A stretch of 64,000 nt of DNA from a virus: the IMG/VR virus record IMGVR_UViG_3300033571_024432, positions 52,708-116,707 of that record; one strand, given 5' to 3'. Both the position numbers and the translations under genes were made by a program. Shown here piece after piece: positions 71-63,784 of the stretch. Below the pieces are notes generated by a model. It searched no databases and had not been told where the DNA came from. It saw only the letters and a program-made list of their open reading frames with translations. Positions within the stretch are counted from its first letter, which is position 1; each line of letters begins with the position of its first letter.

Positions 71-1711
71 ATGATATTAAATGAAAAAAAATTAAATGAA
101 ATAATAAAAAAAGTTTTAAAGGAATCTAGATTTATTTTTGGTGATTATAAAGACGATCAAGGAAATTCTACAGATTTAAAAGCTGTTAATATATCAAAAA
201 AGTTGGGGAAACAATCAAACCCGCATGAAAGATGGACAAATCAGGATGAAAGAGAACAAATAATTGATGAAGTATATTCATTGGCAGGTCCAGATGTATT
301 TATTTCTTTTGTTGATCCATTTGAAAAAGGTGCAGATGGTTATTTAGCATCGCCTGCATTTAGTTTAAACCCGAATGCTACTTTTAATACACCTCATGGT
401 ATATATGCTTATCCTTTTGATAAAAACGATGCACAAAGATTTATAGAGACAGGTTCACCTACACCTTCTCCATTTGCTACAGGACGTAAATATTTTCATT
501 TAATGAGAATTGATTTAGCAAATCCAAATATAATTGTTTTTAATAAAGATGGAACATGTAATAGAAATATTAGTAATCAAGAATACGAGGCAAATATCGA
601 CGAAATGATTAGAATGCATTATTTGTTTTTTAAAGATGAAATAATGAATTGTGTAATGAAATATGATCGTGAATATTGGCCACGTGGTGTTAATAAGCAA
701 ACAGATAAAAATAAAAATGTTAAAATTGTTATTGATGAATATTATTTTAAAGATTCTAAAAAAGAAGAATTACAGAAATTTTTGAATAGTTTAAGATCTT
801 CAACTAGAAGCATGTATATTGATAATAATTATTATAGACTTTATAAAGCAGCATACCATTTATCAAAAAATAAATATATGGGTGATTCATCATCAGATGT
901 AAATATTGATGCCAACTTAAATGTTAAATTTTCAAAAACAAGAGAGGTAAATTCTGAATTTTTTACATTGTTATTGAATAGGATTGGTATAAAGTGTGTT
1001 ATCGATAAAGGAACAGGGGCAATACACCCAAATGAGCCAAGTCAAGTACATATTTTAACATTAGCAGATGATTCTTCTTATTATGAATATCTAGGTACAT
1101 ATCATAATAATTTAACAGCATCAGATGAATTGTTTTATTATTTCTTAAAAAATAATTTATCTGTTAATAAAAAATTTATTGCAATTGATAAAGATAAAAA
1201 AATATTTGTTTGTGATATTACAAATGCTGAGGCAAAATTGGTAACATCAGTAGAACAATATATGGTTGAACACCCTGAGGATTTTGGACATCATAAAATT
1301 AATAATGATGTTGATGTTGATGTTGATGTTGAAAATGAATATTCTAATGATCCTGATGTTATTCCATTAATAGATGAATGGGATGATGAAGATTATGAAG
1401 ATTATATTGAAACTTTCGGAATAAAGCCTACAAGAATGACAAAAAATCTAGAAAAAAAGTTCAAAAAAGAAAATTATCAAGAATTATATACATTTTTTAC
1501 TACAGAATTAGGATATCCACCAATTTTTATACCAGTCGATTGGAAAGAAATATCAAGCAAATTAAAAGTACCTTTATTGGTTTCTTTTGAGAAAAAAGTT
1601 AAAATATCTGCAATTTCAGGGTTAACATTTTTATTGAAAAAAATAGCTAAAAAATATTTTGGATATGAAAAAGTTTCGAACTCTTCTGATTCAAATGATG
1701 ATGATTTTTAA
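71..1711 (+). CDS. Leader-bearing paralogous family protein, copy 1
   Basis: A 546-residue protein of unknown function. Residues 1-18 are the recurrent leader ending L16-K17-E18 before S19. Two blocks are shared with the genes at 1755, 18779 and 22825: an N-terminal block with FISFVDP, NPNATF, TPHGIYAYPFD and FHLMRIDL, and a later block with NSEFFTLLLN, GIKCVIDKGTG and IHPNEPSQVHIL. A short VD repeat (about nt 1305-1331) and an acidic stretch precede a lysine-rich C terminus. The GIYAYPF element loosely recalls the GIYF loop of ADP-ribosyltransferases, but I cannot show the catalytic residues. It is followed 43 bases later by a paralogue, so tandem duplication is likely. Packaging in the virion is inferred from the leader. 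Confidence 0.9.
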   Translation: MILNEKKLNEIIKKVLKESRFIFGDYKDDQGNSTDLKAVNISKKLGKQSNPHERWTNQDEREQIIDEVYSLAGPDVFISFVDPFEKGADGYLASPAFSLNPNATFNTPHGIYAYPFDKNDAQRFIETGSPTPSPFATGRKYFHLMRIDLANPNIIVFNKDGTCNRNISNQEYEANIDEMIRMHYLFFKDEIMNCVMKYDREYWPRGVNKQTDKNKNVKIVIDEYYFKDSKKEELQKFLNSLRSSTRSMYIDNNYYRLYKAAYHLSKNKYMGDSSSDVNIDANLNVKFSKTREVNSEFFTLLLNRIGIKCVIDKGTGAIHPNEPSQVHILTLADDSSYYEYLGTYHNNLTASDELFYYFLKNNLSVNKKFIAIDKDKKIFVCDITNAEAKLVTSVEQYMVEHPEDFGHHKINNDVDVDVDVENEYSNDPDVIPLIDEWDDEDYEDYIETFGIKPTRMTKNLEKKFKKENYQELYTFFTTELGYPPIFIPVDWKEISSKLKVPLLVSFEKKVKISAISGLTFLLKKIAKKYFGYEKVSNSSDSNDDDF

Positions 1712-1754
1712 TTTTATTTAATATATATATATTAAAAAAAGTATATATTAAATT

Positions 1755-3587
1755 ATGATATTAACTAGAAACAAATTAAATAAAATAATAAAAAATAATT
1801 TAAAAGAAACCAGATTTATTTTCGGTGATTATGAAGAAGAAGATGTTGATTCTAATGATAAAAATTTAAAAAAATCAACAGGATTATCAGCAAAAAATAT
1901 GTCTAAAAATATAGGTTCAAAATTAAATTTCATGAAATTTAATTCTAATGAAGAATCTAAAGAATTTATAAAAAATATCGCAGGACCTGATACTTTTATT
2001 TCTTTTATAGACCCTTATGAAAAAGAAGACGCTGATTCTGATGATTCTGAATCTGCGATGAAGGTTCCGTCATTTAGTTTAAATCCAAATGCTACTTTTA
2101 ATACACCTCATGGTATATATGCTTATCCTTTTGATACTAAACACTGTGAAAAATTTATTATAACAGGACAACCTACAAATGCTGAATTTGCTATTGCAAG
2201 ACCTTATTTTCATTTAATTAGAATTGATTTAAATCACCCAAATGTAATTAGTTTTAATGCAGATGGTAGTAGTAATAAAAGTATAAATAGAAATAAATAT
2301 TTAAAAGAACTTAATGAACTTATAAGAGTTCATTGTAAATATTATAATAAAGATGAAAATGAAAAAGAAAATATTTCAGAATCAATTAATGAAAGGCTTA
2401 AAGAATCAATACATTTTCAATTAAGAGATCTAGGGATGAGTAATGATGAAAAATTTGACAAATTAAAAGAAAAATTTTTAAATAATCATTATTATAAATT
2501 ATATAAAGCAGCTTTTTATTTATGCTTTGAAAATGTTTTAAGAAAGTCATATGGATCTGAAGAAAAAAATTCAGAACTATATGCATTATTATTAAATGTA
2601 ATTGGTATGAAATGTATTGTTGATAATAATACAGGTACAATACACGAAAATGAACCAACGCAAATGCACATTTTGACATTTGGCGAAAATGATTCTTTTT
2701 ATGAATACGTAGGTACATTTAAAAATAATATAAAAGCAAATGAAAAAGAATTATCAGATTATATTTCAAATTTAAAGTATACAGATATTGTAAAATTTTA
2801 TTCAAAATTAGACGGTAGCAAATGTTTTGATAAAAATCTAATTGATACTATTTTTAATTTATATAAAAATGATGATGATATAATGTCATTGTTTGTAAAA
2901 TTAATTTATGAAAAATTAATGACATTTTGTTTCGATACAGAAGAAAGAATAGATATTATTAATAAAATAATATCACAAGACTTTGTTAATTGGTTAGAAA
3001 CTTCTGTAGTAAGTGCTAGTGGTATGAAAAATATAAAAAAATGGTTAGGTATAAACGAAGAAAATATATCAAACAAGTATACTTCTTTAAAAGACTGGAT
3101 ATCATTATTTAAAGAAAAAAGTAAAAGTCAAATTACATTTTTATTACACGAACATGTATTAAACAAATTTGATGGTCTAGAAATATTAATAGCAGCAAGA
3201 AATATAGATTTAAAAACATTTTGTTTATTATATGAAATAATAATGTATGAACATGAATTTAATAAAAAAATAACCGAACAAGATAATGCAACAAAAACTT
3301 TCCTGCTTAATACATTAAGTAATATTGATATAGATATATTTAAAAATATAATTAAAGCAACAGATATCGATTTATTTAAAGAACAAAATACTATAGAAAT
3401 GTTTATAAATAAAAACATTAATGATCTAAAAAGAATTGATATATTTTTTAATTATATTTCAAATTCTTTACCTCATATGGAAGATAAAATTAAGCAATAT
3501 ATAAAAAATAAAGTTAAAAATAAAAATGAATCATTAAAAAAATTAAAAGCGTTAATTAGATATGAATTAAAAAATATATTACATTAA
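1755..3587 (+). CDS. Leader-bearing paralogous family protein, copy 2
   Basis: A 610-residue paralogue of the preceding gene; the leader ends L16-K17-E18 before T19 and is followed by the same RFIFGDY residues as copy 1. The shared blocks are intact (GPDTFISFIDP, NPNATFNTPHGIYAYPFD, FHLIRIDLNHPNV; then NSELYALLLN, GTIHENEPTQMHIL, FYEYVGTF). The C-terminal 280 residues are helical, lysine/isoleucine-rich and not shared with copy 1. The stop codon overlaps that of the convergent minus-strand gene in the four bases TTAA. No enzymatic function can be assigned. Confidence 0.9.
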   Translation: MILTRNKLNKIIKNNLKETRFIFGDYEEEDVDSNDKNLKKSTGLSAKNMSKNIGSKLNFMKFNSNEESKEFIKNIAGPDTFISFIDPYEKEDADSDDSESAMKVPSFSLNPNATFNTPHGIYAYPFDTKHCEKFIITGQPTNAEFAIARPYFHLIRIDLNHPNVISFNADGSSNKSINRNKYLKELNELIRVHCKYYNKDENEKENISESINERLKESIHFQLRDLGMSNDEKFDKLKEKFLNNHYYKLYKAAFYLCFENVLRKSYGSEEKNSELYALLLNVIGMKCIVDNNTGTIHENEPTQMHILTFGENDSFYEYVGTFKNNIKANEKELSDYISNLKYTDIVKFYSKLDGSKCFDKNLIDTIFNLYKNDDDIMSLFVKLIYEKLMTFCFDTEERIDIINKIISQDFVNWLETSVVSASGMKNIKKWLGINEENISNKYTSLKDWISLFKEKSKSQITFLLHEHVLNKFDGLEILIAARNIDLKTFCLLYEIIMYEHEFNKKITEQDNATKTFLLNTLSNIDIDIFKNIIKATDIDLFKEQNTIEMFINKNINDLKRIDIFFNYISNSLPHMEDKIKQYIKNKVKNKNESLKKLKALIRYELKNILH

Positions 3588-5053
3588 TTATTCTTTGATT
3601 CATTAAATTTTTCTAAGTAATATTGATATATTTCGTTTGTAATATTTTCAGTTGATTCTTTTTCTAAATCAATATTTCTTTCATTAACTATTTTTTTAAA
3701 ATTTTTTAATAAAGAAATAGAAGGTTTAGACTTTTTACTATTGTCTAGTTTTAAAAATTTCCTAAAATCATACATTTTATTATTTGAGTTTGATATATTT
3801 TTTAAAAATGTTATATCATTATTAATTTTTACTATTTTTTTTCTATCATTCATTAGTGGTAATTTATTCTTTCTACAAAAACTTTCCAAGTTTTGTAGAA
3901 AATATATAAAAACATCAATAATTTGATCTGTAATTTCAGTAGGATCTGTTCCACCATGAGCTTTTTTTAATTTTTCAATAAATGATTGATAATTATTAAT
4001 AATATTATCAACTTCTGGAATATCGCCAGATTGATAATCAAAAACGTATAATTTTCTACTTTCAATCCAATTTGAATTTGGTACAATTAAATGTTTATTA
4101 AAATATGCATCTGCAATTGACCAAGCGATAAAAGATCCTATAAATTTTAATACAGGAATGAAAAGCACCTCATTTAATTTATTTGTTTTTTTATAAGATT
4201 TGACATATGATTCGGTATATGGAATAAAACCCTTTACTTTATTTGGAAGCACTTCCTCGGCAACGTCAATAGGTTTAAAAGCATCTTTAACTTTATTTTT
4301 AATAAAAGATCCTATTTTTTTAGTTTGATTTTTAGCTACACCTGGTGATACTAGACTTGTTACGGCTGTAAATCCATCTCCTTCATCACCTTCAAAATAA
4401 TCTATCCAATCTTCATCGCCTGTATAATAAGATTTTTGTTTAGAAATATATAAACTACTTCCTTCTTCATTAATAACATCAGAAATTGCATGACGTATAT
4501 ATTCAGATTCTGAATTATCTAACATTATACATATTTTCTTTTTATTTCCATTTAATAATATTTTAAATTTAGATGTTAGAATTAATTCATTATATTCTTT
4601 TTGTTTATTATTATCAATTTTATCGCCATTTGATATAGATTTAAAAAATTTAGTATATTTTTGATAATTATCTATAGGTATTTGTTTCCATTCAGTAAAA
4701 TATTTTTTTAAATTTTCATCATCTTGAGACAATTTTTCAAAACCAGATAACTTAGCAATACTTTTATTAATTTCTTTTTTAATATTTGTGTTAAAAAAAG
4801 GTAAATTATCTGTAAGAGATTTTTTTTGATTATATAATTTTTGTACAGAACTCATAATTTGATTATTTGTAATAATCTTATAACATTTTTCATAAAATAA
4901 ATTTAGTACGTCGTCTCCTATAGTTGAATCATCTTCTTGTCCTTCTTTCTCGTCATATGAATCTTCTAAATTATTTTGATTAAGCTCTTTTAAAATTTTT
5001 TCTATAATTATTTTTTTTATTTGACTTTCATTAATAATTTTTATATCACTCAT
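3584..5053 (-). CDS. Leader-bearing protein of unknown function
   Basis: A 489-residue minus-strand protein. The N terminus reads INESQIKKIIIEKILKE, a clear version of the leader (ends L21-K22-E23), which supports this start; AGGA lies about ten bases upstream of the ATG. An acidic linker (DEKEGQEDD) follows. A moderately hydrophobic stretch near residues 300-325 (LFIPVLKFIGSFIAWSIADAY) could touch a membrane. No known domain was recognised. It faces copy 2 of the paralogous family tail to tail and is followed on the same strand by another leader gene, so the two form a minus-strand island. Confidence 0.85.
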   Translation of the reverse strand: MSDIKIINESQIKKIIIEKILKELNQNNLEDSYDEKEGQEDDSTIGDDVLNLFYEKCYKIITNNQIMSSVQKLYNQKKSLTDNLPFFNTNIKKEINKSIAKLSGFEKLSQDDENLKKYFTEWKQIPIDNYQKYTKFFKSISNGDKIDNNKQKEYNELILTSKFKILLNGNKKKICIMLDNSESEYIRHAISDVINEEGSSLYISKQKSYYTGDEDWIDYFEGDEGDGFTAVTSLVSPGVAKNQTKKIGSFIKNKVKDAFKPIDVAEEVLPNKVKGFIPYTESYVKSYKKTNKLNEVLFIPVLKFIGSFIAWSIADAYFNKHLIVPNSNWIESRKLYVFDYQSGDIPEVDNIINNYQSFIEKLKKAHGGTDPTEITDQIIDVFIYFLQNLESFCRKNKLPLMNDRKKIVKINNDITFLKNISNSNNKMYDFRKFLKLDNSKKSKPSISLLKNFKKIVNERNIDLEKESTENITNEIYQYYLEKFNESKNN

Positions 5054-5168: not shown

Positions 5169-6575
5169 TTATTTTGATTGATTTAACTGTATAGTCTTTG
5201 TGTTTGGTTTATTTGAATTTGTTTGAAGTTGATTATTAGATGTTTTTTTAGCAGCTCTGTCTTTGAACATTTTTTCTAATGAAATATTGGCAGCGTCTTC
5301 TAACTCTGTTATTTTGCTTAATGCATCACTTACATTAATATTTGATTTAAGTACTTTATTTAAACCTTTTTCTTTTGCTTCTTGTAGGGATTTGTCTGTC
5401 CATTCTTTATCACTGTCAGCAATGCAATATAGGTATCTAAATAATGTTCTTGATATGACAATATATTGTGATACTTTAAACATTTGATTGCCATAAAAAG
5501 CAGCTAAATATTTTCCTAAATTATTAACATTTTTTAACTTATCTATAGTGGGTTGAAGTTTATCACTATTTTTATCGTTATTATACAAACCCACAAGTAT
5601 TTCGTTTTGCGGATTTGTTAAATAATCAGTAATTTTTGAAATTAAATCTTTATTTTCTGTAATTGGACCAAATTTTTTAATTCCTTTTTTAGCCAAAATT
5701 TGTTCAAATTTTTTAGTAGATTTAGAAGTGTCTTGTAAAGCATTCATTAATTGTGGATTTAACAAAATTTTTGCCAATTCAAAATAACCGCCATTAAGTT
5801 GAGGGATTCTAAATAATACTGGCAATTCATTACTTTCAACTGTTACGTTATTTTGATTTTGATTTTGTGTTTGAGGATTATTATTAGCAATATAATCTTT
5901 ATTATTATTAACATATTCATCATCTAAATATTTGAATACAGCACTTACGTCAATTAATTTTTTGTAAAGGTCAGATTCAGTAAATATAATTATTGCCTTA
6001 GCATCAAAAAAGTTTTTTTTCTCTGCACCGAATAACGTGACGGAATCATACTCAGTATAATAATTAACAAGATCAGAATCATATGTATATCCTTCAAATT
6101 GAGCAAATTTCTTTTGAAGTTCATCATATATATTATTATTTGACTTTTTAATCATTATTATTTTGTGCCTACCACCGTCAAAATGACTTGATTGAAGTTC
6201 GCTTGTTTTTAATATTAAAGTAGGATCAGCATCAAAAAGATTGCTTTTTGCATCTCCTTTAATTATATTATCACGATAAGATAAATTTTTGTTTGCAATA
6301 TCATCATCCACTTTTAAGTAATTTTCAATTACTCCTGCAATTTCTTTATTCAAATAAACTGATTTGTCTGTATTACTTGAATTTAAGAATTCGTTTAATT
6401 GATTGTCTGTGCTATCTTGTTGTTGATCAGCGACTGAAGTCGCTGTGTCATCTTGCTCTTCCCCAACAACGTCATCAACTTCTTCCTCTTCTTTTAATAA
6501 TTTTTTTTTATAATTTTCTATAAGCTTTGTTTTTATAATTTTTCTTATAACTGATTCGTTAATTCTTTTTAACAT
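5169..6575 (-). CDS. Leader-bearing protein of unknown function
   Basis: A 468-residue minus-strand protein. The leader INESVIRKIIKTKLIE (cut predicted after E20) is followed by an acidic, Q/D-rich low-complexity linker to about residue 60. The body is polar with no recognisable catalytic motif; the C terminus is N/Q/K-rich. It is probably divergent from the gene at 6680, with which it shares a 104-base AT-rich intergenic region. An AAAGGA Shine-Dalgarno sequence precedes the ATG. Virion location is inferred from the leader only. Confidence 0.85.
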   Translation of the reverse strand: MLKRINESVIRKIIKTKLIENYKKKLLKEEEEVDDVVGEEQDDTATSVADQQQDSTDNQLNEFLNSSNTDKSVYLNKEIAGVIENYLKVDDDIANKNLSYRDNIIKGDAKSNLFDADPTLILKTSELQSSHFDGGRHKIIMIKKSNNNIYDELQKKFAQFEGYTYDSDLVNYYTEYDSVTLFGAEKKNFFDAKAIIIFTESDLYKKLIDVSAVFKYLDDEYVNNNKDYIANNNPQTQNQNQNNVTVESNELPVLFRIPQLNGGYFELAKILLNPQLMNALQDTSKSTKKFEQILAKKGIKKFGPITENKDLISKITDYLTNPQNEILVGLYNNDKNSDKLQPTIDKLKNVNNLGKYLAAFYGNQMFKVSQYIVISRTLFRYLYCIADSDKEWTDKSLQEAKEKGLNKVLKSNINVSDALSKITELEDAANISLEKMFKDRAAKKTSNNQLQTNSNKPNTKTIQLNQSK

Positions 6576-9197: not shown

Positions 9198-10919
9198 GTG
9201 TTAATATCTGATGAAAGTTTATTAAGAAAATATATTAATAATTTAATATTTGAAGGTTTTACTCCACAAAATCCTTCTATTTCTTTTGTTGATAGTAGTA
9301 AATTTATAAATCCTATTTATAATAAAATATGTAAGGAAATTTTACCATTAGTTTTAGGTGAATTAAATAAATTTTATCCTGATTTAAGTCAATTTATATT
9401 TAAATCATTTAATAATAAATATACAGTACATAAAGATAAATTATTAAATGCATTATCTGATCCTGCTTTTATTACATCAATATTGTCTAAACTTCCTGAT
9501 TTAAAAAATTTTATCGATATTAATGAAATGTTGACTCCAGATAATGTTCGATTTATAAAATTAATTAATAATAATTTAGGTGGATTTAAAATATTAAATT
9601 CTGATACTCCTTTTAATGTTCAAATATTTTTTTCAAATAATGATGCTGGTTTATGGTCAAATAATATAACAAATATAAATATCCCAAAAGACGCATATGC
9701 AGGGTTTTTTCAATTGGTCGGATATAAACAAACAGGTATAGAATGTTATATAACTTTTAATTTATTTCATTTTATATATCACTCTTTTTTTATATATTAT
9801 GTTGGTGTTACAAGAAAAAATGATTCATGGGAAAATGTATTTAATAAATATCTGAGTGATTCTATTAAAATTCAATTATTAAAAGTAATAAGACATGAAT
9901 TAGAGCACGCATTTCAGACAACAAATAATCTTTTAAATAAGATGAAAACTCGTCTTATTAATTATATAAATCCTATTTTAAAGCAGACAAGAAATAAAGA
10001 AAGAAAAATAAGGGCTAAAGATAGGTTAGCAGGTAAAAATATTGCCATACCAATTAAATCAAGTATTGTATCTTTTTTAAAAGATAAAAATACTGATTAT
10101 CTTCATTTTAAAAAATTGACGCTAATATTATTAGAAACATTACGTGAAAGTCCTTCAATATCTATACAATATAGTGTTAATAAAAAAAGAAAAGGATATG
10201 GCTTTACTAAAACAAATCCTAATATTTTAAAATATTCAAATCAAAAATATGTAAATCAAAATAATAATATTGCTAGTGATCGCGAATCTAAATTATATCG
10301 ATATGATCCAGTTGAAATAATTCCGCAATTAAATGATCTTGTAATGTCATATGTATTTGCTGCTGCTGGATTTTTTGCAAATGTAGAATCGGCAATAGAT
10401 TGGTTTTTTGAATTTATTGAATCTGATTTATTTAAAGAAAAATATGCTTTTGAAAAAGATTCAAAAACAAAAACTGATATATTAGAGGCATTTTTAAAGA
10501 ATTCTAATTGTTTAAAAAATAAAGAGTTTGTAATTGATGATGTATTAATTAATAATAAATTACCATATAAATCTTTTAATTTTACAGAAGATTTTAATGA
10601 AATAATTAATGAATTTATTAATAATTTTAATTATATAACAATTGGTCAATCAGACTTATTATTTGATTTATTATCTGTTAAATCAAATGAACGTAATATT
10701 TATTTTGATGAAAGCACACCTACAGTAAATATTAATAGATCTGAATCTGTTTTAACAGATACTGATATCTTAAACGATCCTCAAACAAAGTCAGTAAATA
10801 TTACTGATTTAAATAATTATAGAGATAAGCTTGGAAAAGAAATTAAAAATTTGTTTATTAAAAAAATGAAAAAATTGTGGCAACAAAAAAATATGTTGAA
10901 TATAAATTTAGATATTTAA
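9198..10919 (+). CDS. Leader-bearing HExxH putative metalloprotein
   Basis: A 573-residue protein starting at GTG. The start is supported by AAAAGGA eight bases upstream and by the leader (MLISDESLLRKYINNLIFE, cut after E19 before G20), which closely resembles the leader at 63187. Residues 232-239 read RHELEHAF, a zincin-type HExxH motif (H233, E234, H237). I cannot place the third zinc ligand. A hydrophobic patch lies near residues 380-400. The rest is polar and unrecognised. The stop overlaps the convergent gene at TTAA. Confidence 0.85.
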   Translation: MLISDESLLRKYINNLIFEGFTPQNPSISFVDSSKFINPIYNKICKEILPLVLGELNKFYPDLSQFIFKSFNNKYTVHKDKLLNALSDPAFITSILSKLPDLKNFIDINEMLTPDNVRFIKLINNNLGGFKILNSDTPFNVQIFFSNNDAGLWSNNITNINIPKDAYAGFFQLVGYKQTGIECYITFNLFHFIYHSFFIYYVGVTRKNDSWENVFNKYLSDSIKIQLLKVIRHELEHAFQTTNNLLNKMKTRLINYINPILKQTRNKERKIRAKDRLAGKNIAIPIKSSIVSFLKDKNTDYLHFKKLTLILLETLRESPSISIQYSVNKKRKGYGFTKTNPNILKYSNQKYVNQNNNIASDRESKLYRYDPVEIIPQLNDLVMSYVFAAAGFFANVESAIDWFFEFIESDLFKEKYAFEKDSKTKTDILEAFLKNSNCLKNKEFVIDDVLINNKLPYKSFNFTEDFNEIINEFINNFNYITIGQSDLLFDLLSVKSNERNIYFDESTPTVNINRSESVLTDTDILNDPQTKSVNITDLNNYRDKLGKEIKNLFIKKMKKLWQQKNMLNINLDI

Positions 10920-13548: not shown

Positions 13549-13983
13549 CTAAATAGAAAATTTAAATGTGATACCTGTTTCATCATGACCTAAATCATTT
13601 TTATTTCTATATAAATCTACTTCTAAAGATTTAATAAAGTGATTATTATCTAATTTTATTTTAAATGTAGGTGTTAATAAATTAAACAAAGAATTTTTAG
13701 CTGTATCAACGCCTACTTCTTCTTTCCACGTTTGCAAAAAATTATTTTTAAATTTTTGAGTGTCAGTATTATCATATAATTGAAAATTAAAATCAAAATC
13801 TTTTAATACATCTTGCATTTTTTCTAATATTTTATTTTGAATATTAGGTGATAAATTTAATTTAATATTTTTTGATAATTGTATATCTATTTCATTTGAA
13901 AATTTATTTTCTTCGTTTTCTAAAATTTTATGTATTTCTTTAATTTTATTTTCAAACAATAATTCTTTTAATTTATAATTCAT
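13549..13983 (-). CDS. Short leader-bearing protein
   Basis: A 144-residue minus-strand protein. MNYKLKELLFE is a short version of the leader (L9-F10-E11 before N12). The C-terminal half is beta-like with alternating hydrophobic residues (FKIKLDNNHFIKSLEVDLYRN). No domain was recognised. It lies alone between plus-strand genes for a membrane protein and thioredoxin, like an inserted cargo cassette. Confidence 0.78.
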   Translation of the reverse strand: MNYKLKELLFENKIKEIHKILENEENKFSNEIDIQLSKNIKLNLSPNIQNKILEKMQDVLKDFDFNFQLYDNTDTQKFKNNFLQTWKEEVGVDTAKNSLFNLLTPTFKIKLDNNHFIKSLEVDLYRNKNDLGHDETGITFKFSI

Positions 13984-18778: not shown

Positions 18779-21505
18779 ATGTCACTAAATATATTAAAAA
18801 ATTATATTAAAATGATATCTGAGGGTAGCGCATCTACAGATTTAAGTCCTAATAAATTAAATGCAGGATATATGTCTAAAATTTTTGGAAAAAACAGAAG
18901 CAAATCTAATATCGATCAATATAATTTTAAATTACTTGCTGAAATTAATGAAAAATTAGAAAATTTTGATTATGATGAAATGCATAATAATTATAATATT
19001 GACAAAGAAGATATAAATTATAAAAAAAATTTAGCAATATATTATGCTATTTTAGGTAAATTACTAAATAATAGTTTATTAAAAAATATTTTTATAAAAA
19101 AAAATTTTACAAATGATCAATATATATACATTCCTGAAAACGCTATTTATACAACTGCTGATTATACAAATATTTCCAAAGGCGAAATAATATTAAAAAA
19201 AATAGATGAAGAAGATGAAAATTATGATGAAGAAAATTTAATAATTAATGAACTTAATAAACTTTTAAATATTTTAATGAGTGTTTACGATTTTTCTGTA
19301 CATGATACAGAAAATATAAAGTTTGATATCGATGAAAAATATTTTAATATATCAGAATTTGTGTCTGCCAAACCGAATGCAAATCAAACTAAAAAACAAA
19401 TATATGAACAACAAACAGGCGCAGATTATAACGCTCAAGTTAATTTTGCACAATTTTTATTAAATATATCAGGATCTGATATATTTATTTCTTTTGTTGA
19501 TCCATATGAAAAAAATAAAAATGGCACTTTTAAAGTACCTCTTTTAGGTATAAATCCAAATGCGACATTTGGGACTCCACATGGTATATATGCATATCCT
19601 TTTGATAAACATAATGCTTTAAGTTATATAGCTACTGGTACAGCAACTCATGCAAAATTCGCTAGAAAAAGAGAATATTTTCATTTAATTAGAGTTGATT
19701 TAAATCATCCGAATGTATTAAATATCGATGAATCAGGTAACTCAAAAATTGGTAGTAGAAAGTATGATAAAAATGATTATCAAAAAGATTTTAATGAACT
19801 TGTTAGAATGGCAAATATTTTATTTAATTTTCCTTTATCACGTAATTTTTCAGGAAATATTTTAGATTTAGAAAATAATATTACAGATTTAAAATATTCT
19901 CATACAAAAACTAGTATTTCACATATGTACACAGGCGTTACAAATAATTTAAGATATTTATTTAAGAAAGTAGCAACAGAATTAAATATTGATGCTCAAT
20001 TAACTGATAAGAAAATTAATGAAATAATAAATGATATTGCTAATTCTTGCGGTTTAACAGACTATGTTATGAAAAACTATGTTAATAAAATAATTGGTAA
20101 TAATATTGATAAAAATAATTTTGATAAAAATGCAGAGGAGCAATTTTATGATTTTGTTGAAGAATTTAAAAATATAACAGTAGAAGAGTTGCCTTCAAAA
20201 AGTAGTATTTATAGAAATTTTGTAAAAAATTATCCTCAATTTAATAATTTAATGAAAAAACATTATGATAATTATATGCAAGAAAATTTGCCTGAAAGAT
20301 ATTCAGAATTAGTTCCTGATAGTACAAATAGTATAAATATTAAAGATTTTATGACAAATAATGATGTTTTAAATGCAAAATTTCAATATAAAAAGCATGA
20401 TCCTCTAGGAAATATATCAACTAATTCAAATGCTGAATTGGCTGATAGGATACTTAGTAATATAGTTATTATTAAAGATGAATTAAATAAAATAAAAGAT
20501 TTTGGCGTCCGTATTTGGAAAGCAGCATTTTTTATATCAAGGATTTTTTCTTATAATCAAAAAAATCAAAACTTTAATATTACACGTCTAATGCATGATG
20601 CAAAAAGTAATAGTTTTATTAGTTCTCATGAAGGAAGATCTGAATTTTTTTCATTATTGTTAAATTCAATTGGCATTAAATGTGTGATTGATCAAGGTAG
20701 TGGTACTGTTCATGGAAATGAACCATCTCAAATGCATATTGCAACATTTGGAGAGGATAATTCTTTTTATGGATATATTGGCACATTTGATAACATTTTT
20801 GAATATGGAGATCAAGGTGAAGCCATAGAAGAGTTAAGAGAAAAAAAGCGTAGAGAACTTATTATTAGCGCATTAGGGGGAGAAAATATAGAAAATTTTA
20901 CTGGAACTCAACCTGCTTTTTATCTAAGAAACAAATCTCCTAAAGAATTTAAAGCAGAGAATGAAAAAAGTGCAAGAAAATTGACAGATGCATATTTAGA
21001 ATATGTCTTGAGATACAATAAACCTAAAGTTGATTATGGCCCATTGGGACCTCCAGGAAATAGATATATACCAAAAAATCCAAAGATTGAAAAGAAAGAT
21101 AAAACACAAGCACTTTCGACAGAAAACCCTTTAATATATAATCAACTAAAAGCAACAAATATTTTATCAGATATATATGAAAAAATATATGCATTAAATG
21201 ACGACATAAAAAATGAAAATTGGTATCGTGATATTGTTGAAAAAATTAATCAGAATTATTTCGATGATACTAAATATAAAGATTATTATCTACTTCAAGA
21301 TGAATATGGAAATATGCCACATGGTTATACAAACGCAATTGGTAAAAAGCCAGAAAAAGATGAAATTAAGCATTTTAAAGATGGTCGTAATATGAGGAAT
21401 ATGCCTATTGGTAAATTTCACTGGAGAAATCCTACTGTAAATGAAAATTTAAATAAAGAAATATTTAATGCTTTAAAGTATAAAAAATTAAAGTTATTAT
21501 ATTAA
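18779..21505 (+). CDS. Leader-bearing paralogous family protein, copy 3 (largest)
   Basis: A 908-residue member of the family seen at 71, 1755 and 22825. The short leader ends I13-S14-E15 before G16. The first shared block begins near residue 220 (GSDIFISFVDPYEK, INPNATFGTPHGIYAYPFD, YFHLIRVDLNHPNV), so about 200 residues precede it that copies 1, 2 and 4 lack. About 230 further residues separate it from the second block (SEFFSLLLNSIGIKCVIDQGSG, VHGNEPSQMHI). A proline-containing linker (GPLGPPGNRYIPKNP) lies near residue 765. Function unknown. Its stop shares TTAA with the convergent gene. Confidence 0.9.
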   Translation: MSLNILKNYIKMISEGSASTDLSPNKLNAGYMSKIFGKNRSKSNIDQYNFKLLAEINEKLENFDYDEMHNNYNIDKEDINYKKNLAIYYAILGKLLNNSLLKNIFIKKNFTNDQYIYIPENAIYTTADYTNISKGEIILKKIDEEDENYDEENLIINELNKLLNILMSVYDFSVHDTENIKFDIDEKYFNISEFVSAKPNANQTKKQIYEQQTGADYNAQVNFAQFLLNISGSDIFISFVDPYEKNKNGTFKVPLLGINPNATFGTPHGIYAYPFDKHNALSYIATGTATHAKFARKREYFHLIRVDLNHPNVLNIDESGNSKIGSRKYDKNDYQKDFNELVRMANILFNFPLSRNFSGNILDLENNITDLKYSHTKTSISHMYTGVTNNLRYLFKKVATELNIDAQLTDKKINEIINDIANSCGLTDYVMKNYVNKIIGNNIDKNNFDKNAEEQFYDFVEEFKNITVEELPSKSSIYRNFVKNYPQFNNLMKKHYDNYMQENLPERYSELVPDSTNSINIKDFMTNNDVLNAKFQYKKHDPLGNISTNSNAELADRILSNIVIIKDELNKIKDFGVRIWKAAFFISRIFSYNQKNQNFNITRLMHDAKSNSFISSHEGRSEFFSLLLNSIGIKCVIDQGSGTVHGNEPSQMHIATFGEDNSFYGYIGTFDNIFEYGDQGEAIEELREKKRRELIISALGGENIENFTGTQPAFYLRNKSPKEFKAENEKSARKLTDAYLEYVLRYNKPKVDYGPLGPPGNRYIPKNPKIEKKDKTQALSTENPLIYNQLKATNILSDIYEKIYALNDDIKNENWYRDIVEKINQNYFDDTKYKDYYLLQDEYGNMPHGYTNAIGKKPEKDEIKHFKDGRNMRNMPIGKFHWRNPTVNENLNKEIFNALKYKKLKLLY

Positions 21506-22764
21506 TAAAAATTTAATATATTTTCTAAAGTGCTTTTCGAAATAAATATACCATATTTTTTCCATTTTTCGATATTATCTTCTATATAATCTAAAATATT
21601 TAAATCTACATTATATTTTGAAGTGTATTCTCTTGAAAGATAAGCATTTAATAGTTCATTAATAATATTTCTTATATAATCTATTTGTGTTTCATCCCTT
21701 AATCCTGTATTATGATTAATAGGTGCTAGAGTATTAAAATTTGTTAAAGTTTTAAACTGATTTAAATCAATTAATGAAAAATATTTCATTTTATCAATAG
21801 GTTGTATGTTTAACATTATTTTTTCCAAATGATTTAAAATATTTAAACTTATTCCTGTTTTTTTATTAATTTCTATTTTTAAATTATCATTAAACTCAAA
21901 TTCTGTTTCTCCATATTTTGAGTTTAAGTAAAATGTATTATTTGAAGTAATTACGCTGGTTATTTTATTGCAATATATTTTTTCGCCAGAATTAGTTATT
22001 ATTTTTTTTAAACCTAAAGAAATTTTATTATGTCCTGATATATCGTTTTCTGGTAAAAAATAAAATATATTATCGCCGCTGAAAAAATATGTATTAAATA
22101 AATTTGAATCTAAACGAGCTGTACACCATTTTGTATCATCTTTATTATTTAAAACAATATCCTCAGCTAACCAATTTGTTCTAGCCCAAAAAATTGAAGA
22201 CGCCATATTTAATGGACAAACTACTAAAAAGCCATCAATAATATTATTATTAAATGGATAGAATGTTTTATTTTTTTTTAATAAATTTTTTTCTTCAATG
22301 ATTCTGTTTAATCCTGATATTTCTGATTTTTCTTGTATTTTTTGATAAACAAATAATAATTTTTCATATGTATTTGTTGAATATTCATAGTTATTTTTAT
22401 TATAGTTTAACATAAAATCATAAATATAATCTTTAAAAATAATACCATTTGTTGTTTTTTTAGATGTAACATCTTTTTGTTGATATAAAAACAATAATGA
22501 TGTGCATATATTTTCTATATAATATTGTATATTTGATTCATTAAATTTAGAAATATCATTAATACATTCATATAAAACATCAATAAAAAAACGTCCTGGT
22601 GAATTTTGATTATATAAAGAATATTTTATATTAATATTTTCAAATGTTTCATTAATTAAATTGAAAATAACATTTTTTTCTTTTAAATTAAATAATTTAT
22701 ATTTTGTCTCAAATAAAATATTTTCTCTTATTATTTTTTTGAAATCTGCTAATTTAATTATCAA
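21502..22764 (-). CDS. Leader-bearing protein of unknown function
   Basis: A 420-residue minus-strand protein. The leader (DFKKIIRENILFE, cut after E19 before T20) is clear and supports the start. In the middle, ASSIFWARTNWLAEDIVLNNKDDTKWCTARLDSN resembles a compact folded domain; similar WCTA-containing segments occur in phage proteins I have seen, but I cannot name a family. It is divergent from paralogue copy 4 (22825) and convergent with copy 3. Confidence 0.85.
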   Translation of the reverse strand: MIIKLADFKKIIRENILFETKYKLFNLKEKNVIFNLINETFENINIKYSLYNQNSPGRFFIDVLYECINDISKFNESNIQYYIENICTSLLFLYQQKDVTSKKTTNGIIFKDYIYDFMLNYNKNNYEYSTNTYEKLLFVYQKIQEKSEISGLNRIIEEKNLLKKNKTFYPFNNNIIDGFLVVCPLNMASSIFWARTNWLAEDIVLNNKDDTKWCTARLDSNLFNTYFFSGDNIFYFLPENDISGHNKISLGLKKIITNSGEKIYCNKITSVITSNNTFYLNSKYGETEFEFNDNLKIEINKKTGISLNILNHLEKIMLNIQPIDKMKYFSLIDLNQFKTLTNFNTLAPINHNTGLRDETQIDYIRNIINELLNAYLSREYTSKYNVDLNILDYIEDNIEKWKKYGIFISKSTLENILNFY

Positions 22765-22824: not shown

Positions 22825-23757
22825 ATGAAAGAAAAAACAATAAGATTATATATAAAAAATTTATTAGAATCTAAATTTTTAGCAATGGCTTCAGATGACT
22901 TAAATGCAGATAATATTAGTCGTTTTTTTAATCAAAGATTAAATTTTATAGATATAAAAAATGTAAATGATTTAAAAGATTATTTAATAGATATTTCTGG
23001 ACCTGATGTTTTTATTTCATTTACAAACCCATGGAATCAAAATATTCCTACTTTTTCAATAAATCCTATAGCAAAGTTTGGAACTCCACACGGAATATAT
23101 TTTTATCCCTTTGATATAAAAAATGCTATTAAATTTATAAATGAAGGTAAACCTACAAATGCTAATTTTGCAATCAGAAATGATTATTTTCATTTGTTAA
23201 AAGTAGATTTAAATCATCCAAGTGTATTGATATTAAATCAAGATGAAACAGTAAATAGAAAAGATTTATCAATTATTGAATTTAAAATATGTTTAAATGA
23301 AATAATAAGAATATGTAAAGAATACTCAAATATTGAAATAAATAAAAATGAATTATTTTTTGAATTAAAAAAATATAATAAACAATATAACAATTTTTAT
23401 ATAAAATTATATCAAATATGTGGTATAATATCAAAAAAAGTATCATTAAAAAATAATTCTGAATTATTTGGTTTATTATTAAATAGTTTGAATATAAAGT
23501 GTGTAATTGATCGTGGTTTAGGTGTAATACATCATAATGAACCTAATCAAATGCATATTTTACAATATGATGATAATGATAGTTTTTATGAATATATTGG
23601 CACTTTTAAAAATTTAATTAAAGATTACGTTTATTTTGAAGACAGAACTATTGCACAACCTAAAAAAGATTTTCAAAATATAAACAATTTATTAAAACAA
23701 AAATCATTAAATATCGATGATGTTATGAATAATCCTAATTTTAAAATTAATAATTAA
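22825..23757 (+). CDS. Leader-bearing paralogous family protein, copy 4 (minimal)
   Basis: A 310-residue, smallest member of the four-gene family: leader (L13-L14-E15 before S16), first block (GPDVFISFTNPW, INPIAKFGTPHGIYFYPFD, YFHLLKVDLNHPSV) and second block (NSELFGLLLNSLNIKCVIDRG, VIHHNEPNQMHIL, SFYEYIGTF) with little else. It therefore defines the core domain: about 120 residues, a variable helical spacer, then about 75 residues. Residues kept in all four include the H, G, I and Y of TPHGIY, the F-H-L of YFHL, and N-E-P-x-Q-x-H. Confidence 0.9.
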   Translation: MKEKTIRLYIKNLLESKFLAMASDDLNADNISRFFNQRLNFIDIKNVNDLKDYLIDISGPDVFISFTNPWNQNIPTFSINPIAKFGTPHGIYFYPFDIKNAIKFINEGKPTNANFAIRNDYFHLLKVDLNHPSVLILNQDETVNRKDLSIIEFKICLNEIIRICKEYSNIEINKNELFFELKKYNKQYNNFYIKLYQICGIISKKVSLKNNSELFGLLLNSLNIKCVIDRGLGVIHHNEPNQMHILQYDDNDSFYEYIGTFKNLIKDYVYFEDRTIAQPKKDFQNINNLLKQKSLNIDDVMNNPNFKINN

Positions 23758-25886: not shown

Positions 25887-26390
25887 ATGTTTCAATTGAA
25901 TGAAAATAGTATGAAACGTATTATGCGTGAGGAATATTTTAAAAGATTAAAACATTTTTTACAAGAAGAAATGTCTATAATGTATAAAAATGGTTCAAAT
26001 GAAATAGATGTATTGTCAGATGCTTCAAAATTAAAAGTAAGAAATGATAAAAGTGGTTTAGAATATACTGTTTTAAAATTTGATAAAGCTAATAAAAAGG
26101 TTGTATTATTATGTCCTGAATTTTCTAGATTTGATTCTAGTTATAAACCTAAATCAACAAAAAAATTAACTGAGGTTGATTTTGATAATGATGGTGTTGA
26201 TGATTTAAGTATTAAATTAAACAAAATAGATAGTTTATTAGACGATGAAGATGAAAAAGATTCTAGAAAAACAACGAATGATAAAATAAAATTAATGGAT
26301 TTTAATAAAGATGATGATTCAAGCATATCTAAAAATAAAGATTATATTATCGTTGATTTAGATGAATTTATTAAAGAATATAGTTTATAA
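25887..26390 (+). CDS. Leader-bearing acidic protein with calcium-loop-like motif
   Basis: A 167-residue protein with an extended leader (LNENSMKRIMREEYFKRLKHFLQE, E27). Near residue 98 VDFDNDGVDDLSI resembles the D-x-D-x-D-G loops of EF-hand or FG-GAP type calcium sites, although no partner hand is seen. The C-terminal half is D/K-rich. AAGGA is 11 bases upstream of the ATG. First gene of a long run of probable virion genes to 39264. Confidence 0.8.
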   Translation: MFQLNENSMKRIMREEYFKRLKHFLQEEMSIMYKNGSNEIDVLSDASKLKVRNDKSGLEYTVLKFDKANKKVVLLCPEFSRFDSSYKPKSTKKLTEVDFDNDGVDDLSIKLNKIDSLLDDEDEKDSRKTTNDKIKLMDFNKDDDSSISKNKDYIIVDLDEFIKEYSL

Positions 26391-26401: not shown

Positions 26402-27133
26402 ATGTTTGATAAAAAATTAGAAAATTTAGTTAAACAAAGCGTTATTAAAACAATGAATGAAAATAACGTTTTATTAAAAAATAGTAATATTAAAAATGAA
26501 AATGAAAAAAAATTAAATGAAGCATATGTTGCACAACCAACAAACTTTAATTTAAATACTGAATTGTTATCAGAAAAAACAAAAATAGCCCATCAGGAAT
26601 TATTTGAAGGTTATATAAAAGAATTAAATACTGTTTCTGCAAAATTAGATACAGCTGATCGTGAAAATGTTAATCCAAATAATAGTCAATTTCGTTCTTT
26701 AAAATTAGATGAAATACATAATCATAATGCTTCATTTTTACACGGTTTATATTTTCAAAATATAAGCGATGTAAATAGTGAAATAACAGCAGATAGTTTA
26801 GCATTTATGAGAATTGAAAGGGATTTTGGAAGTTTTGATTTGTGGCAAGAAGATTTTATTGCTTGTTGTATGTCTTCAAGAAATGGTTGGGCTATGACTG
26901 TATATAGTTCAACATTAAAAAGATATATTAATACTATAGTAGATTTACATGATCAACATGTTTTAATAAGTTCTTTTCCTGTAATTGTTATGGATTGTTG
27001 GGAACATAGTTATTATAGAGATTATTTAAAAAATAGAAAAGCCTATGTATATGGTATGATGAAAGAATTAAATTGGAATGTCATTGAAGAACGTTTCAAA
27101 ATAGCAGATAAAATAGGAGCTTTAATTAAATGA
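26402..27133 (+). CDS. Fe/Mn superoxide dismutase-like protein with N-terminal extension
   Basis: A 243-residue protein. Residues 50-240 follow the Fe/Mn SOD fold: LSEKTKIAHQELFEGYIKELN (H64), HNHNASFLHGLYFQN (H114), RDFGSFDLWQEDFIACCMSS, NGWAMTVYS, and DCWEHSYYRDY with D198 and H202. All four metal ligands are therefore present. The first 45 residues are a K/N-rich extension beginning with a degenerate leader (ends M-N-E). A secreted or packaged antioxidant, or a structural use of the fold, are both possible; similar SOD-like proteins are known among marine phage genes. ATGA overlap couples it to the next gene. Confidence 0.88.
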   Translation: MFDKKLENLVKQSVIKTMNENNVLLKNSNIKNENEKKLNEAYVAQPTNFNLNTELLSEKTKIAHQELFEGYIKELNTVSAKLDTADRENVNPNNSQFRSLKLDEIHNHNASFLHGLYFQNISDVNSEITADSLAFMRIERDFGSFDLWQEDFIACCMSSRNGWAMTVYSSTLKRYINTIVDLHDQHVLISSFPVIVMDCWEHSYYRDYLKNRKAYVYGMMKELNWNVIEERFKIADKIGALIK

Positions 27134-44664: not shown

Positions 44665-45489
44665 ATGATGCAAGAAAAAAAATTTTTATTAAATGAAAAA
44701 TTAATTAGAGAATTTATACAAATATTAGTTGAAGAAAAAAATGAAAATTACGATTTTATAAAAAATGAAATAAAAGCAATTGTACAAATTAGTTTAATTC
44801 TTACAGGTTTTATTTTATTATTAAATCCTGTTTCTTTGACAGCATCTGGTGGAATATTATCAATTGAGATTATTTTAGCAAGTATTAATGTTATACTTGA
44901 TTTAACAAATCATGAATATAATAAAAGAAAAAATAAATATGAATATTCTCCTGAATTATTTGATGCATTAATTAATATTGGCGGTGTAGGTGTTTTAAAG
45001 TTTTTAAATATTTTAAAAAATAAAAATATTTTAAATAATATTGATTTTCAAAACGAAAATAAAATAAAAATGTATAATATTATTACAAATTTAATAAATG
45101 TATCTCTAATAAGTTATGATGTTGTTGATTTGTCTAATATATTTAAAAAAATGTATAAAGAAATTAATGAAAAATATCCAGATATTAAAAATGATAATGA
45201 AATAAAAAAAACATTTGAAGAATATTCACAGTTAATAAATAATGCATCAAATACAAAAAAAATAACAAATGAAGAATTAGAAAATATACAATATTTAAAA
45301 GATGAATTATCATTAATTACAAATAATTTAAATTTACAAGAAAAAGTTAATCAAAAATATGAGATTATTATAAAAAAAATTAAAAGTAAAACAATTAATA
45401 AAAAAAACGAAGAAGATAATTCTTGGGATTTTTCTTGGCTTAAAAAAGCATTTAAGCCAATGAAAGACAAATTTAATAAAACAAAATAG
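44665..45489 (+). CDS. Leader-bearing membrane protein
   Basis: A 274-residue protein with a long clear leader (LLNEKLIREFIQILVE, E23 before E24). Residues about 38-88 hold two hydrophobic helices (AIVQISLILTGFILLLNP and GGILSIEIILASINVIL), so it likely enters a membrane, perhaps on ejection. The C-terminal half is charged coiled coil ending SWDFSWLKKAFKP. Function unknown. Confidence 0.82.
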   Translation: MMQEKKFLLNEKLIREFIQILVEEKNENYDFIKNEIKAIVQISLILTGFILLLNPVSLTASGGILSIEIILASINVILDLTNHEYNKRKNKYEYSPELFDALINIGGVGVLKFLNILKNKNILNNIDFQNENKIKMYNIITNLINVSLISYDVVDLSNIFKKMYKEINEKYPDIKNDNEIKKTFEEYSQLINNASNTKKITNEELENIQYLKDELSLITNNLNLQEKVNQKYEIIIKKIKSKTINKKNEEDNSWDFSWLKKAFKPMKDKFNKTK

Positions 45490-49147: not shown

Positions 49148-49348
49148 ATGAAATTAAATGAAAACAAATTGAAAAAATTATTAAAAGAATATTTATTTGA
49201 AATATATTCAGGATCATATTCAGATGAATCTTATAAAGATGGACATATTGATGATATGATGTTAGATAAAGAAGGATGGATAACTGATCCGGATGATCGT
49301 AAAAAAATTAAAAAATGGTACTTAGATATGAAATTATCTCATAAATGA
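49148..49348 (+). CDS. Small leader-bearing protein
   Basis: A 66-residue protein with a model leader (KLNENKLKKLLKEYLFE, E18 before I19), then SGSYSDESYKDGHIDD and a short helix. Removing the leader would leave 48 residues. Function unknown. Confidence 0.75.
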   Translation: MKLNENKLKKLLKEYLFEIYSGSYSDESYKDGHIDDMMLDKEGWITDPDDRKKIKKWYLDMKLSHK

Positions 49349-49382
49349 ATATATATATATTAAAAATAAATAGGTGCTTTTC

Positions 49383-50135
49383 ATGTTATTAAATGAAATA
49401 AAATTAAAAAAAATTATTAAAAATTTATTATCTGAACATTTTCTTTTAATTGAACAAGCAATCGATGATAAAATTAAAAAAGAATGGATAACTTTTCTAA
49501 AATTAAAAAACAAAATAAATTCTGATTATTTTAATAGCGCAAGCGCTGATAGTAATTCTCAAGGCAATATGTGCAATTCACGCTTTGGCGCTTATGCTAT
49601 AGCAAATCAAGCAGATAAAGGTAAAGCTTTTTTTAACGATGTATTTAATGATATAAATGTTGATGAATTAGATCTTGATATTGTTAATAAAAATATAGAT
49701 GAATTATATTCTTTTTTATTTCATCATTATATTAATCCAAATAAGGCAAATGTGAAAGAATTTATTGATATGTTTAAAAATATTAAAATACATGTTAAAG
49801 AAAGTAATAAAATGAATTTAAATTTATTCATTTCTAATGTTATTAAAATATTAGAAGCATGTAAAGGTATAAATATTTGGAATGATGAACTTATAGAAGA
49901 AGATATAGGTATTATTTCAACAATTGATGATATTTCTGAAATTACTTCAACAGATCAACTAACAGGTAGATTAAATAAAAATTATCCTGGTGAAATTATA
50001 TTTTCTAATTTAAATAGCAGAAATACACATTTAGCAAAACTTTTATCTAAAAAATTAAATGACAATGTAATTAAAGAAATAGTTTATAGATTAAAAAGTA
50101 CATTAAATTATAGAAAAAAAAATAAAAAAATGTAA
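49383..50135 (+). CDS. Leader-bearing protein of unknown function
   Basis: A 250-residue protein. The ATG at 49383 is chosen over the GTG at 49374 because TAGGTG supplies the ribosome-binding site and because MLLNEIKLKKIIKNLLSE then gives a textbook leader (E18 before H19). A small Gly/Ala segment follows (NMCNSRFGAYAIANQADKGKAFF). The remainder is helical. No family recognised. Confidence 0.82.
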   Translation: MLLNEIKLKKIIKNLLSEHFLLIEQAIDDKIKKEWITFLKLKNKINSDYFNSASADSNSQGNMCNSRFGAYAIANQADKGKAFFNDVFNDINVDELDLDIVNKNIDELYSFLFHHYINPNKANVKEFIDMFKNIKIHVKESNKMNLNLFISNVIKILEACKGINIWNDELIEEDIGIISTIDDISEITSTDQLTGRLNKNYPGEIIFSNLNSRNTHLAKLLSKKLNDNVIKEIVYRLKSTLNYRKKNKKM

Positions 50136-50280: not shown

Positions 50281-50331
50281 TTAATTATAAATATTTATTT
50301 TATTTTCGCTATAATATATCTAGGAGTATAT

Positions 50332-55330: not shown

Positions 55331-56053
55331 ATGAAAAAATTAAATGAAAGAGAAATAACTAAAAAATTTATACAAAATAATTTATATGATGAAATTAGAA
55401 ATGATAGAAAAAATAATTTGTTATTAAAAGAGGCAGGATTTTCAATTGGAGGTATTGGCTTTGGAAATTCTGGTAATGGTTTTGGTTCATCACCTAATAT
55501 GACTATTCAATCTTGGTCTGATTTTGATGATGAATATGATGAATCATCTGAAGATTCTTTTTATGATGAAAGTGTTGAATCATTAGGAGATGAAGAGCAT
55601 AATGTTTATGGTTTTAATGCTGGAGATCATTTTGATACATCACATATGTTTGGAACTGAAAGTGATTATTATATGAATGGTGAAAAAGGTGCTGCTGAAA
55701 AACCTCCTAAGTTAGATAGAAATGGAAATATTTCACCTGCTGAATTACATAGACATTTCGATTTAGATGGTGATGGTGATGTAGATATGTATGAATATAC
55801 AGAACATATTGATTTTCATTCAAAACATCCTGATTTATTATCTCAATGGCGTAATGCAAAAAATACAAATAGGAAAGCATGTAAAGATTATGATTCTTAT
55901 TGTATGGTAGGTGATTCAATTATGGATAATTATGATGATTTAACTAATTTTATAGATGATATTATGTGTAAATCCGGATCTACATGTACAGATTCAACAG
56001 TAAAAGCATTAACAGATGTAATTAATATTTTAAAAAAATCAGGAATTATCTAA
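55331..56053 (+). CDS. Leader-type protein with EF-hand
   Basis: A 240-residue protein starting two bases after the previous stop. The basic start runs to LLLKE34 before A35. Gly-rich GGIGFGNSGNGFG follows, then acidic residues. At about 144-155 DLDGDGDVDMYE is a canonical EF-hand loop (D1, D3, D5, G6, V8, E12); DRNGNISPAEL just before it looks like the partner hand. Calcium binding is likely. Cys residues in the tail (DIMCKSGSTC) could pair. Virion role inferred. Confidence 0.83.
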   Translation: MKKLNEREITKKFIQNNLYDEIRNDRKNNLLLKEAGFSIGGIGFGNSGNGFGSSPNMTIQSWSDFDDEYDESSEDSFYDESVESLGDEEHNVYGFNAGDHFDTSHMFGTESDYYMNGEKGAAEKPPKLDRNGNISPAELHRHFDLDGDGDVDMYEYTEHIDFHSKHPDLLSQWRNAKNTNRKACKDYDSYCMVGDSIMDNYDDLTNFIDDIMCKSGSTCTDSTVKALTDVINILKKSGII

Positions 56054-60629: not shown

Positions 60630-60662
60630 TTATAAAAAAGATTAAAATCAAAAGGAATCAAA

Positions 60663-63142: not shown

Positions 63143-63186
63143 AAATATTTTTAAAAACATATATAGTATAAAATAAAGGATTATAT

Positions 63187-63784
63187 ATGTTAATATCTGA
63201 AAGAAATTTAAGAAGTATTATTCAAAATATTATTTATGAAGCAAGAGCAACAGGTAAAGGATCAAGAGGACCATATAAAAAACATCCAAAAAAAAGAACT
63301 TCCACCTGAGCCACCTATTAGATGGGCTAAAGGATATGGTCCTGATTCATTTGAAATAGATCTTGATGCAGAAGTTGAAAGAATTAATGCTGAATCTGCA
63401 GAACTTGAAAGAAGAAGAAATTTAAAACCAACATACGTTAAATCTGTATCATATGACTTTAAACCTCCAAGAAATAGTAATGGTTATTATGATACAAATA
63501 CCTTAAATAACGAAGATTGGAATTCAAATTATTCTAATAAAAGCGAAACATATGGAACTACATATCCTGGAGAAGATATAGAAGATTTTAAAGGAGAAAG
63601 TTTAAACAGCACAGGATATTCAGATACTATAGGTGAACAATGTTGGGAAGAACAAAATCCTGGTGTATTACCTATAGACGGTGATATATGTTCTAATGAA
63701 GTAGGAACTTTTGAATATTTCAATAATAGATGGAATATTATGAATACATTAAAAAAGAAAATAAAAAGAACAAATGTTAAATAA
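63187..63784 (+). CDS. Leader-bearing gene with apparent frameshift at A8
   Basis: The first reading frame (63187-63309, 40 codons) gives a model leader, MLISERNLRSIIQNIIYE, E18 before A19, then a basic stretch and a stop. The following bases continue as an open frame in +1 (from about 63290 to 63784: ELPPEPPIRWAKGYG, DAEVERINAESAELERRRN, then a Gly/Asn/Thr-rich tail). The frame change falls on the eight-A run after CC (about 63287-63294). Seven A would join the frames. Either a homopolymer error, a broken gene, or slippage is responsible. The body without the leader is about 160 residues, of unknown function. Confidence 0.72.

Follow-up and report, generated by a model that had tools for sequence, protein, structure and literature searches.

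A recurrent N-terminal leader on unrelated proteins of uncultured giant phages, probably a much enlarged version of T4 capsid targeting

Identification of the leader

Why do many proteins that are unrelated to each other begin with the same short amphipathic helix? The question is raised by a 64,000-nucleotide stretch of phage DNA (the window), which spans positions 52708-116707 of a 116,707-bp IMG/VR phage record (IMGVR_UViG_3300033571_024432; here G000). A first-pass annotation of this stretch had described one leader on 25-30 unrelated proteins and read it as a capsid-targeting signal similar to that of T4 but longer. The analysis reported here suggests that the leader is probably a T4-type propeptide that targets proteins to the capsid and is then removed, and we regard the leader system as a greatly expanded variant of its T4 counterpart. 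An earlier account of the leader did not turn up in the literature searched.

The remainder of G000 was retrieved and gene-called along with the window, and 126 N-termini were scored by a Glu-anchored position matrix in a leave-one-out (LOO) scheme. Scores of 648 internal windows set the 99% threshold, and 20 shuffled sets served as an additional control. Twenty of the 126 N-termini exceed the threshold against an expectation of 1.26, while the shuffled sets yield 0-6 when taken through the identical procedure; a simple regular expression returns 15-16 matches as compared to ~3 in shuffles. An unsupervised expectation-maximization motif search was dropped, since it locked onto the start Met. 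The enrichment over internal and shuffled controls makes the leader secure for ~14-20 genes of G000; many of the weaker forms in the first-pass annotation lack significance when taken singly. Composition could be ruled out as its origin by the shuffles, the internal controls and the occurrence of leaders in GC-rich relatives (51-54% G+C).

The leader is N-terminal and amphipathic, recurs on unrelated proteins and approximates the consensus (N/T)-E-x-x-(L/I)-(R/K)-x-I-(I/L)-(K/N)-x-x-L-x-E. Besides the window genes (Table 1), it is present elsewhere on G000 at L001:200, L001:1949, L003:358, L003:1521 and L003:2453. An (L/I)-x-E site lies at residues 12-25 in 12 of the 12 best window genes, a partly circular figure. 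The Glu had been placed exactly at residue 18, which holds for the genes at 71, 1755, 36040, 49148, 49383 and 63187, whereas elsewhere it is found at 14-24 or later; likewise, the S, T, G or A expected to follow it is seen in part of the genes, others carrying I, H, D or N. Among the 18 genes listed earlier as weaker forms, 13 have (L/I)-x-E at residues 12-25, compared with 12 of 43 genes outside the list (p=0.0017; the comparison is in part circular, since the selection was made by eye). Most of these fail the matrix test on their own, but those at 25887, 26402 and 33381 are backed by relatives. All 10 enzyme-type genes tested (ThyX, thioredoxin, PolIII alpha, DSP phosphatase, TK, dCMP deaminase, 5'-3' exonuclease, Cpn60, sigma factor and AAA/MoxR) are leaderless, in keeping with the claim that housekeeping enzymes lack the leader, though proteins with a superoxide dismutase (SOD) fold (26402) and a PCD/DCoH fold (33381) carry it. 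Most leader proteins have no match in Pfam, and a search of IMG/VR yielded no homologs of the protein at 71.

The junction between leader and SOD-fold domain

The protein encoded at 26402-27133 has relatives at 21 IMG/VR loci. AlphaFold2 predicts a helix at residues 4-20, a segment with predicted local distance difference test (pLDDT) values below 50 at residues 24-34 and the SOD domain thereafter, and Foldseek matches the model to 1coj (1.2e-13). The protein has the SOD fold, and H114, D198 and H202 are kept in 17 of 19 distinct sequences; the first His (H64) is one residue off the 1coj ligand and column 63 is never His. In the 19 distinct phage sequences, the helix and the linker vary in sequence and length, and the only invariant leader residue is the junction Glu. 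The junction, located directly at the start of the SOD domain, reads (L/I/V)-x-E↓(A/S), where the arrow marks the predicted cut, with Glu in 19/19, L, I or V at P3 in 19/19 and A or S at P1' in 18/19 sequences. The predicted cut in the window protein follows this invariant Glu, E40 (KLNE↓AYV). In two of the SOD-fold relatives (L121 and L122) all four metal-ligand positions are lost together and the leader and cut site are retained. No such leader is recognisable on the SOD-like protein of the jumbo phage MIJ3.

Alternatively, the leader could be a helix that docks the protein on a different partner (for instance, a phage-encoded chaperonin, a membrane or a compartment made by the phage) and be neither removed nor packaged. 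An amphipathic helix is able to bind many partners, a Cpn60-type chaperonin is encoded in the window, and the N terminus of the T4 head protein is reported, in a reference listed in PMC10052503, to direct proteins to GroEL. However, docking leaves unexplained the invariant junction described above, as well as the capsid propeptide with the same motif and the leader protein beside the protease described below, and we consider it unlikely.

Head genes and the prohead protease in relatives

G000 encodes tail sheath, neck and baseplate-type genes. No S77 protease was found on the 116.7-kb record and no portal or capsid gene was seen among its open reading frames (ORFs); it is probably a fragment of a larger genome, since close relatives reach 211-240 kb. 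Relatives were recruited via the sheath gene and the SOD gene. In these, the protease was called by Pfam and the capsid protein by homology, whereas most other gene names reflect position and inspection. The search for a prohead protease gene that the first-pass annotation had suggested came up empty on G000, which has no head region, but succeeded in the relatives, including the close relatives G018 and G020.

Near-complete relatives (211-280 kb) combine leaders with a whole T4-type head cluster of terminase, portal, gp21-type (S77) protease, scaffold and gp23-type capsid protein. In T4, the prohead core genes are located in the neighbourhood of the protease. In the nine head clusters inspected, a leader protein of ~130-155 residues (MAKVSRSMLKSIVKECLVELLAEG and similar) is encoded 1-3 genes downstream of the protease. 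Among the matches listed, 15 of the 22 leader contigs with a length of 80 kb or more encode S77, as do 13 of 13 with a length of 120 kb or more, counts given here without a base rate. The capsid proteins of the relatives carry an N-terminal stretch of ~60 residues ending in LLENQAxQVL(K/R)E↓S/A, followed by a mature part with homology to T4 gp23, and the VLKE↓S end of the leader at 71 is identical to the end of this capsid propeptide.

In T4, propeptides of 7-65 residues are removed by gp21, which cleaves behind L/I-x-E (PMC9026906), and the capsid-targeting sequence (CTS) measures 10-20 residues (PMC5694885). Replacement of the P1 Glu by Asp in T4 IPIII prevents cleavage while the protein is still loaded (PMC9026906). 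The predicted cut sites of the leaders fall at residues 14-40, within the range of T4 propeptides. Because of these lengths, the notion of a signal longer than that of T4 fails, while the core idea of a T4-like signal gains support from the S77 protease, the capsid site, the head-cluster leader protein, the junction Glu and the exchange of leaders discussed below.

Leaders on unrelated folds

Leaders are found directly before four unrelated folds, viz., SOD, PCD/DCoH, HAD phosphatases (for example, a gene annotated as 5'-3' deoxyribonucleotidase in Flavobacterium phage immuto) and P-loop kinases. The best Foldseek matches of the 33381 protein are PCD/DCoH structures (2ebb, 1.3e-4, probability 1.00), and this protein has five homologs and an N-terminus of low confidence up to about residue 35. 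Leaders also differ between otherwise similar proteins: two kinases that are 59% identical over their length have unlike leader types (MKLLLEGWRKYLNE and MKITNKQLRQIIKEELNRVLRE), and the domain of gene 46485 bears an MKIT leader in the relative G003 and none in G018 and G020.

These observations bear on the possibility that the leader genes form a single fast-evolving paralogous family with an ancestral N-terminal domain, in which case they would resemble each other through descent or base composition rather than through a signal. The genes at 71 and 1755 do share residues beyond the leader (RFIFGDY), and tandem arrays in relatives suggest local duplication. Such a family is nevertheless strained by the same leaders standing before four different folds and is at odds with the unlike leaders of the kinase pair, the internal and shuffled controls and the leaders of the GC-rich relatives; we consider it very improbable. 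Homologs were found for 5 of 21 leader genes and for 57 of 90 others (p=0.0013; the leader set was hand-chosen), and this faster turnover fits the expectation for host-specific cargo.

Distribution in other phage genomes

A DNA pattern for MKITxxxLRxII matches at least 120 IMG/VR stretches, as compared to 11 for a codon-permuted control. In the 109 non-redundant MKIT-type ORFs among the matches listed, residues 12-14 are I-x-E in 93% and a further site is present at residues 17-26 in 66%, versus 16-23% in control windows. Where phages share a leader residue, its codon differs in 54% of cases. This codon diversity leads us to reject an element acting in DNA or RNA at the start of genes, such as a translation enhancer or a recombination site with the peptide as its by-product, as exceedingly improbable, even though some genes (71 and L001:200) share the upstream stretch as well.

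The matrix trained on G000 finds 22 leader N-termini in G003 where 2.8 are expected. The expansion is uneven, being strong in G000, G016, G003 and G056, moderate in G018 and G020, and low or absent in immuto and RM378; a broad regular expression applied to G018 and G020 was set aside as too permissive. A strict pattern run against 257 Gb of bacterial and archaeal genomes matched seven stretches on four contigs. One of them, NHDW01000006.1 (L310, L315, L318-L334), is a 305,838-bp contig in a Methylococcaceae metagenome-assembled genome (MAG), with an S77 protease and 39 strict leader genes, 17 of them consecutive. Because its ends repeat 280,180 bp apart, it is apparently a complete, terminally redundant genome of a giant T4-like phage, and its presence in a Methylococcaceae bin is therefore probably due to a binning error or an infected cell. 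The short MAG contigs L312 (DJKT01000044.1) and L313 (PBIO01000025.1) have an MKIT-type leader on nearly every gene.

A second leader type, approximately LLxxWRxFLxE, with the same terminal (L/I)-x-E, occurs four times in G018 and twice in G020 as against 0.3 in shuffles (G018:52622, 112914, 113170 and 201929; G020:83810). In the 484-kb phage LR756508, a tandem array of diverged paralogs lies just downstream of the capsid gene (L308:14784-19474); these have short leaders (MRLKEILLE↓N and MKLKGILKE↓A) and an (L)YRG motif reminiscent of ADP-ribosyltransferases, with no Pfam match. A profile of this array found no match in the genomes studied.

Comparison with known systems and a proposed mechanism

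The T4 internal proteins IPI, IPII, IPIII and Alt, whose CTS is cut by gp21, resemble the leader proteins in the short N-terminal propeptide, the L/I-x-E site and cargo that is unrelated in sequence, and relatives have T4-type head genes with an S77 protease. Unlike in T4, with its few tagged proteins, tens are found per genome, the leaders are of several types and arranged in tandem islands, the putative cargo includes SOD, PCD, HAD and kinase folds, and the phages are uncultured giants. SPN3US and phiKZ-type phages are likewise giant and have many internal head proteins and processing by a prohead protease (PMC5694885, PMC10052503), but their propeptides mostly exceed 100 residues and most of their head proteins are uncut, whereas the leaders here are short with a recognisable motif. 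DarA and Hdf of phage P1 provide a further likeness, as defence-related proteins tied to head morphogenesis (PMC12810830).

That the leader works like a CTS is well supported. The broader proposal, a large modular set of cargo under a T4-like signal cut after L/I-x-E, fits all findings and gains independent support from the relatives; the first-pass reading as a whole, with its longer signal and fixed Glu-18, is partly supported. The steps after translation (core binding, cutting and delivery) are modelled on T4 (PMC9026906, PMC5694885). The amphipathic N-terminal helix would bind the scaffold or core of the growing prohead and carry the cargo protein into the head, where a gp21-type (S77) prohead protease would cut behind the (L/I/V)-x-E that closes the helix or the linker following it. 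The mature cargo may then remain inside the head alongside the DNA and be released into the host at infection.

Several points weigh against a T4-type targeting propeptide. We infer the packaging of the leader proteins by analogy, and the comparison with T4 concerns site, length and head genes rather than the sequences of the tags themselves. The protease link rests on relatives because G000 itself is without S77 protease and head genes, and the S77 base rate is unset, with two control patterns matching 11 and 8 stretches, nearly all of them on small contigs. Phages immuto and RM378 possess the protease yet show no leader expansion, the broad regular expression is not clearly enriched in G018 and G020, and, in some leaders, a clear site is missing or the Glu precedes a bulky or charged residue.

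Features of the window

Table 1. Leader and leader-like genes of the window. ↓, predicted cut; FDR, false discovery rate; aa, amino acids; support gives the tier of the window gene among supported leaders.
Position	Strand	Length (aa)	N-terminus	LOO	Support	Remarks
71..1711	+	546	MILNEKKLNEIIKKVLKE↓SRF	21.4	best	leader protein; no control window as high; no Pfam match
1755..3587	+	610	MILTRNKLNKIIKNNLKE↓TRF	20.7	best	leader protein
3584..5053	-	489	MSDIKIINESQIKKIIIEKILKE	11.6	best	leader protein
5169..6575	-	468	MLKRINESVIRKIIKTKLIE↓N	14.6	best	leader protein
9198..10919	+	573	MLISDESLLRKYINNLIFE↓G	17.1	best	leader protein; GTG start
13549..13983	-	144	MNYKLKELLFENKIKEIHKILENEE	15.0	best	leader protein
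21502..22764	-	420	MIIKLADFKKIIRENILFE↓T	8.2	next	leader protein; TTG start; FDR 0.057
22825..23757	+	310	MKEKTIRLYIKNLLE↓S	20.9	best	leader protein
25887..26390	+	167	MFQLNENSMKRIMREE			leader-like protein; homologs with similar N-termini in G016, G018, G020; adjoins the SOD gene, in relatives too
26402..27133	+	243				leader, linker and Fe/Mn SOD-fold domain; Pfam Sod_Fe_C 1.5e-20
27130..28170	+	346	MIKRNNLNYIEKLLLE↓K	7.8	next	leader protein; FDR 0.065
29027..29521	+	164	MKINLNEKTVRALARNILFE↓S	11.6	best	leader protein; leader-bearing homolog in G016; look-alikes in G018 and G020
33381..33764	+	127	MNISNLMKNYFNE			leader-like N-terminus and PCD/DCoH-fold domain; five homologs, Foldseek
36040..38526	+	828	MHNQYKLIIKNNMKILKE↓D	4.4		weak alone, FDR 0.26; proteins of similar size in G018 and G020 have N-termini with LxE
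44665..45489	+	274	MMQEKKFLLNEKLIREFIQILVE↓E	16.8	best	leader protein; transmembrane-like stretch (KD19 max 2.08)
49148..49348	+	66	MKLNENKLKKLLKEYLFE↓I	15.4	best	leader protein
49374..50135	+	253	MLLNEIKLKKIIKNLLSE↓H	25.4	best	leader protein; N-terminus as read from the 49383 start
55331..56053	+	240	MKKLNEREITKKFIQNNLYDE	9.3	next	leader-like protein; FDR 0.039; second site LLLKE↓A at 34
63187..63309	+		MLISERNLRSIIQNIIYE↓ARATGKGSRGPYKKHPKKRTST (ARATG...)			40-codon ORF with a clean leader, from translation

At window positions 59538-61994, a MoxR-type AAA ATPase is followed by a 443-aa phrog_1314 protein; the order recurs in RM378, where genes for an ATPase and a 428-aa protein annotated as HNH immediately precede the capsid gene. 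At L003:11161-12973 (G000 49161-50973), a GIY-YIG-like ORF is followed by an ORF that, by inspection, opens with an intein-like C-terminal part (NNQNFFANNMLIHNC) preceding ribonucleotide-reductase-like sequence, an arrangement repeated, also by inspection, in G018 and G020.

Implications

Only a handful of tagged proteins is packaged in T4. That T4-like phages in general might load varied cargo by means of the tag is a suggestion made in a review (PMC9026906). We give an even chance to a clade-wide extension of targeting by leaders, in which uncultured giant T4-like phages would load tens of proteins per virion through exchangeable leaders encoded in cassette islands and deliver them to the host with the DNA. 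The cargo would then comprise metalloenzyme folds, RNA-repair-type phosphatases and kinases and could be listed from sequence, and the whole would be a phage counterpart of effector delivery. If the tag is indeed recognisable in this way, the injected proteomes of uncultured giant phages would become predictable, which is currently impossible, and the tag would single out, from 'hypothetical' genes, proteins for host takeover and anti-defence. Natural, interchangeable tags would also become available for bringing foreign proteins into phage heads.

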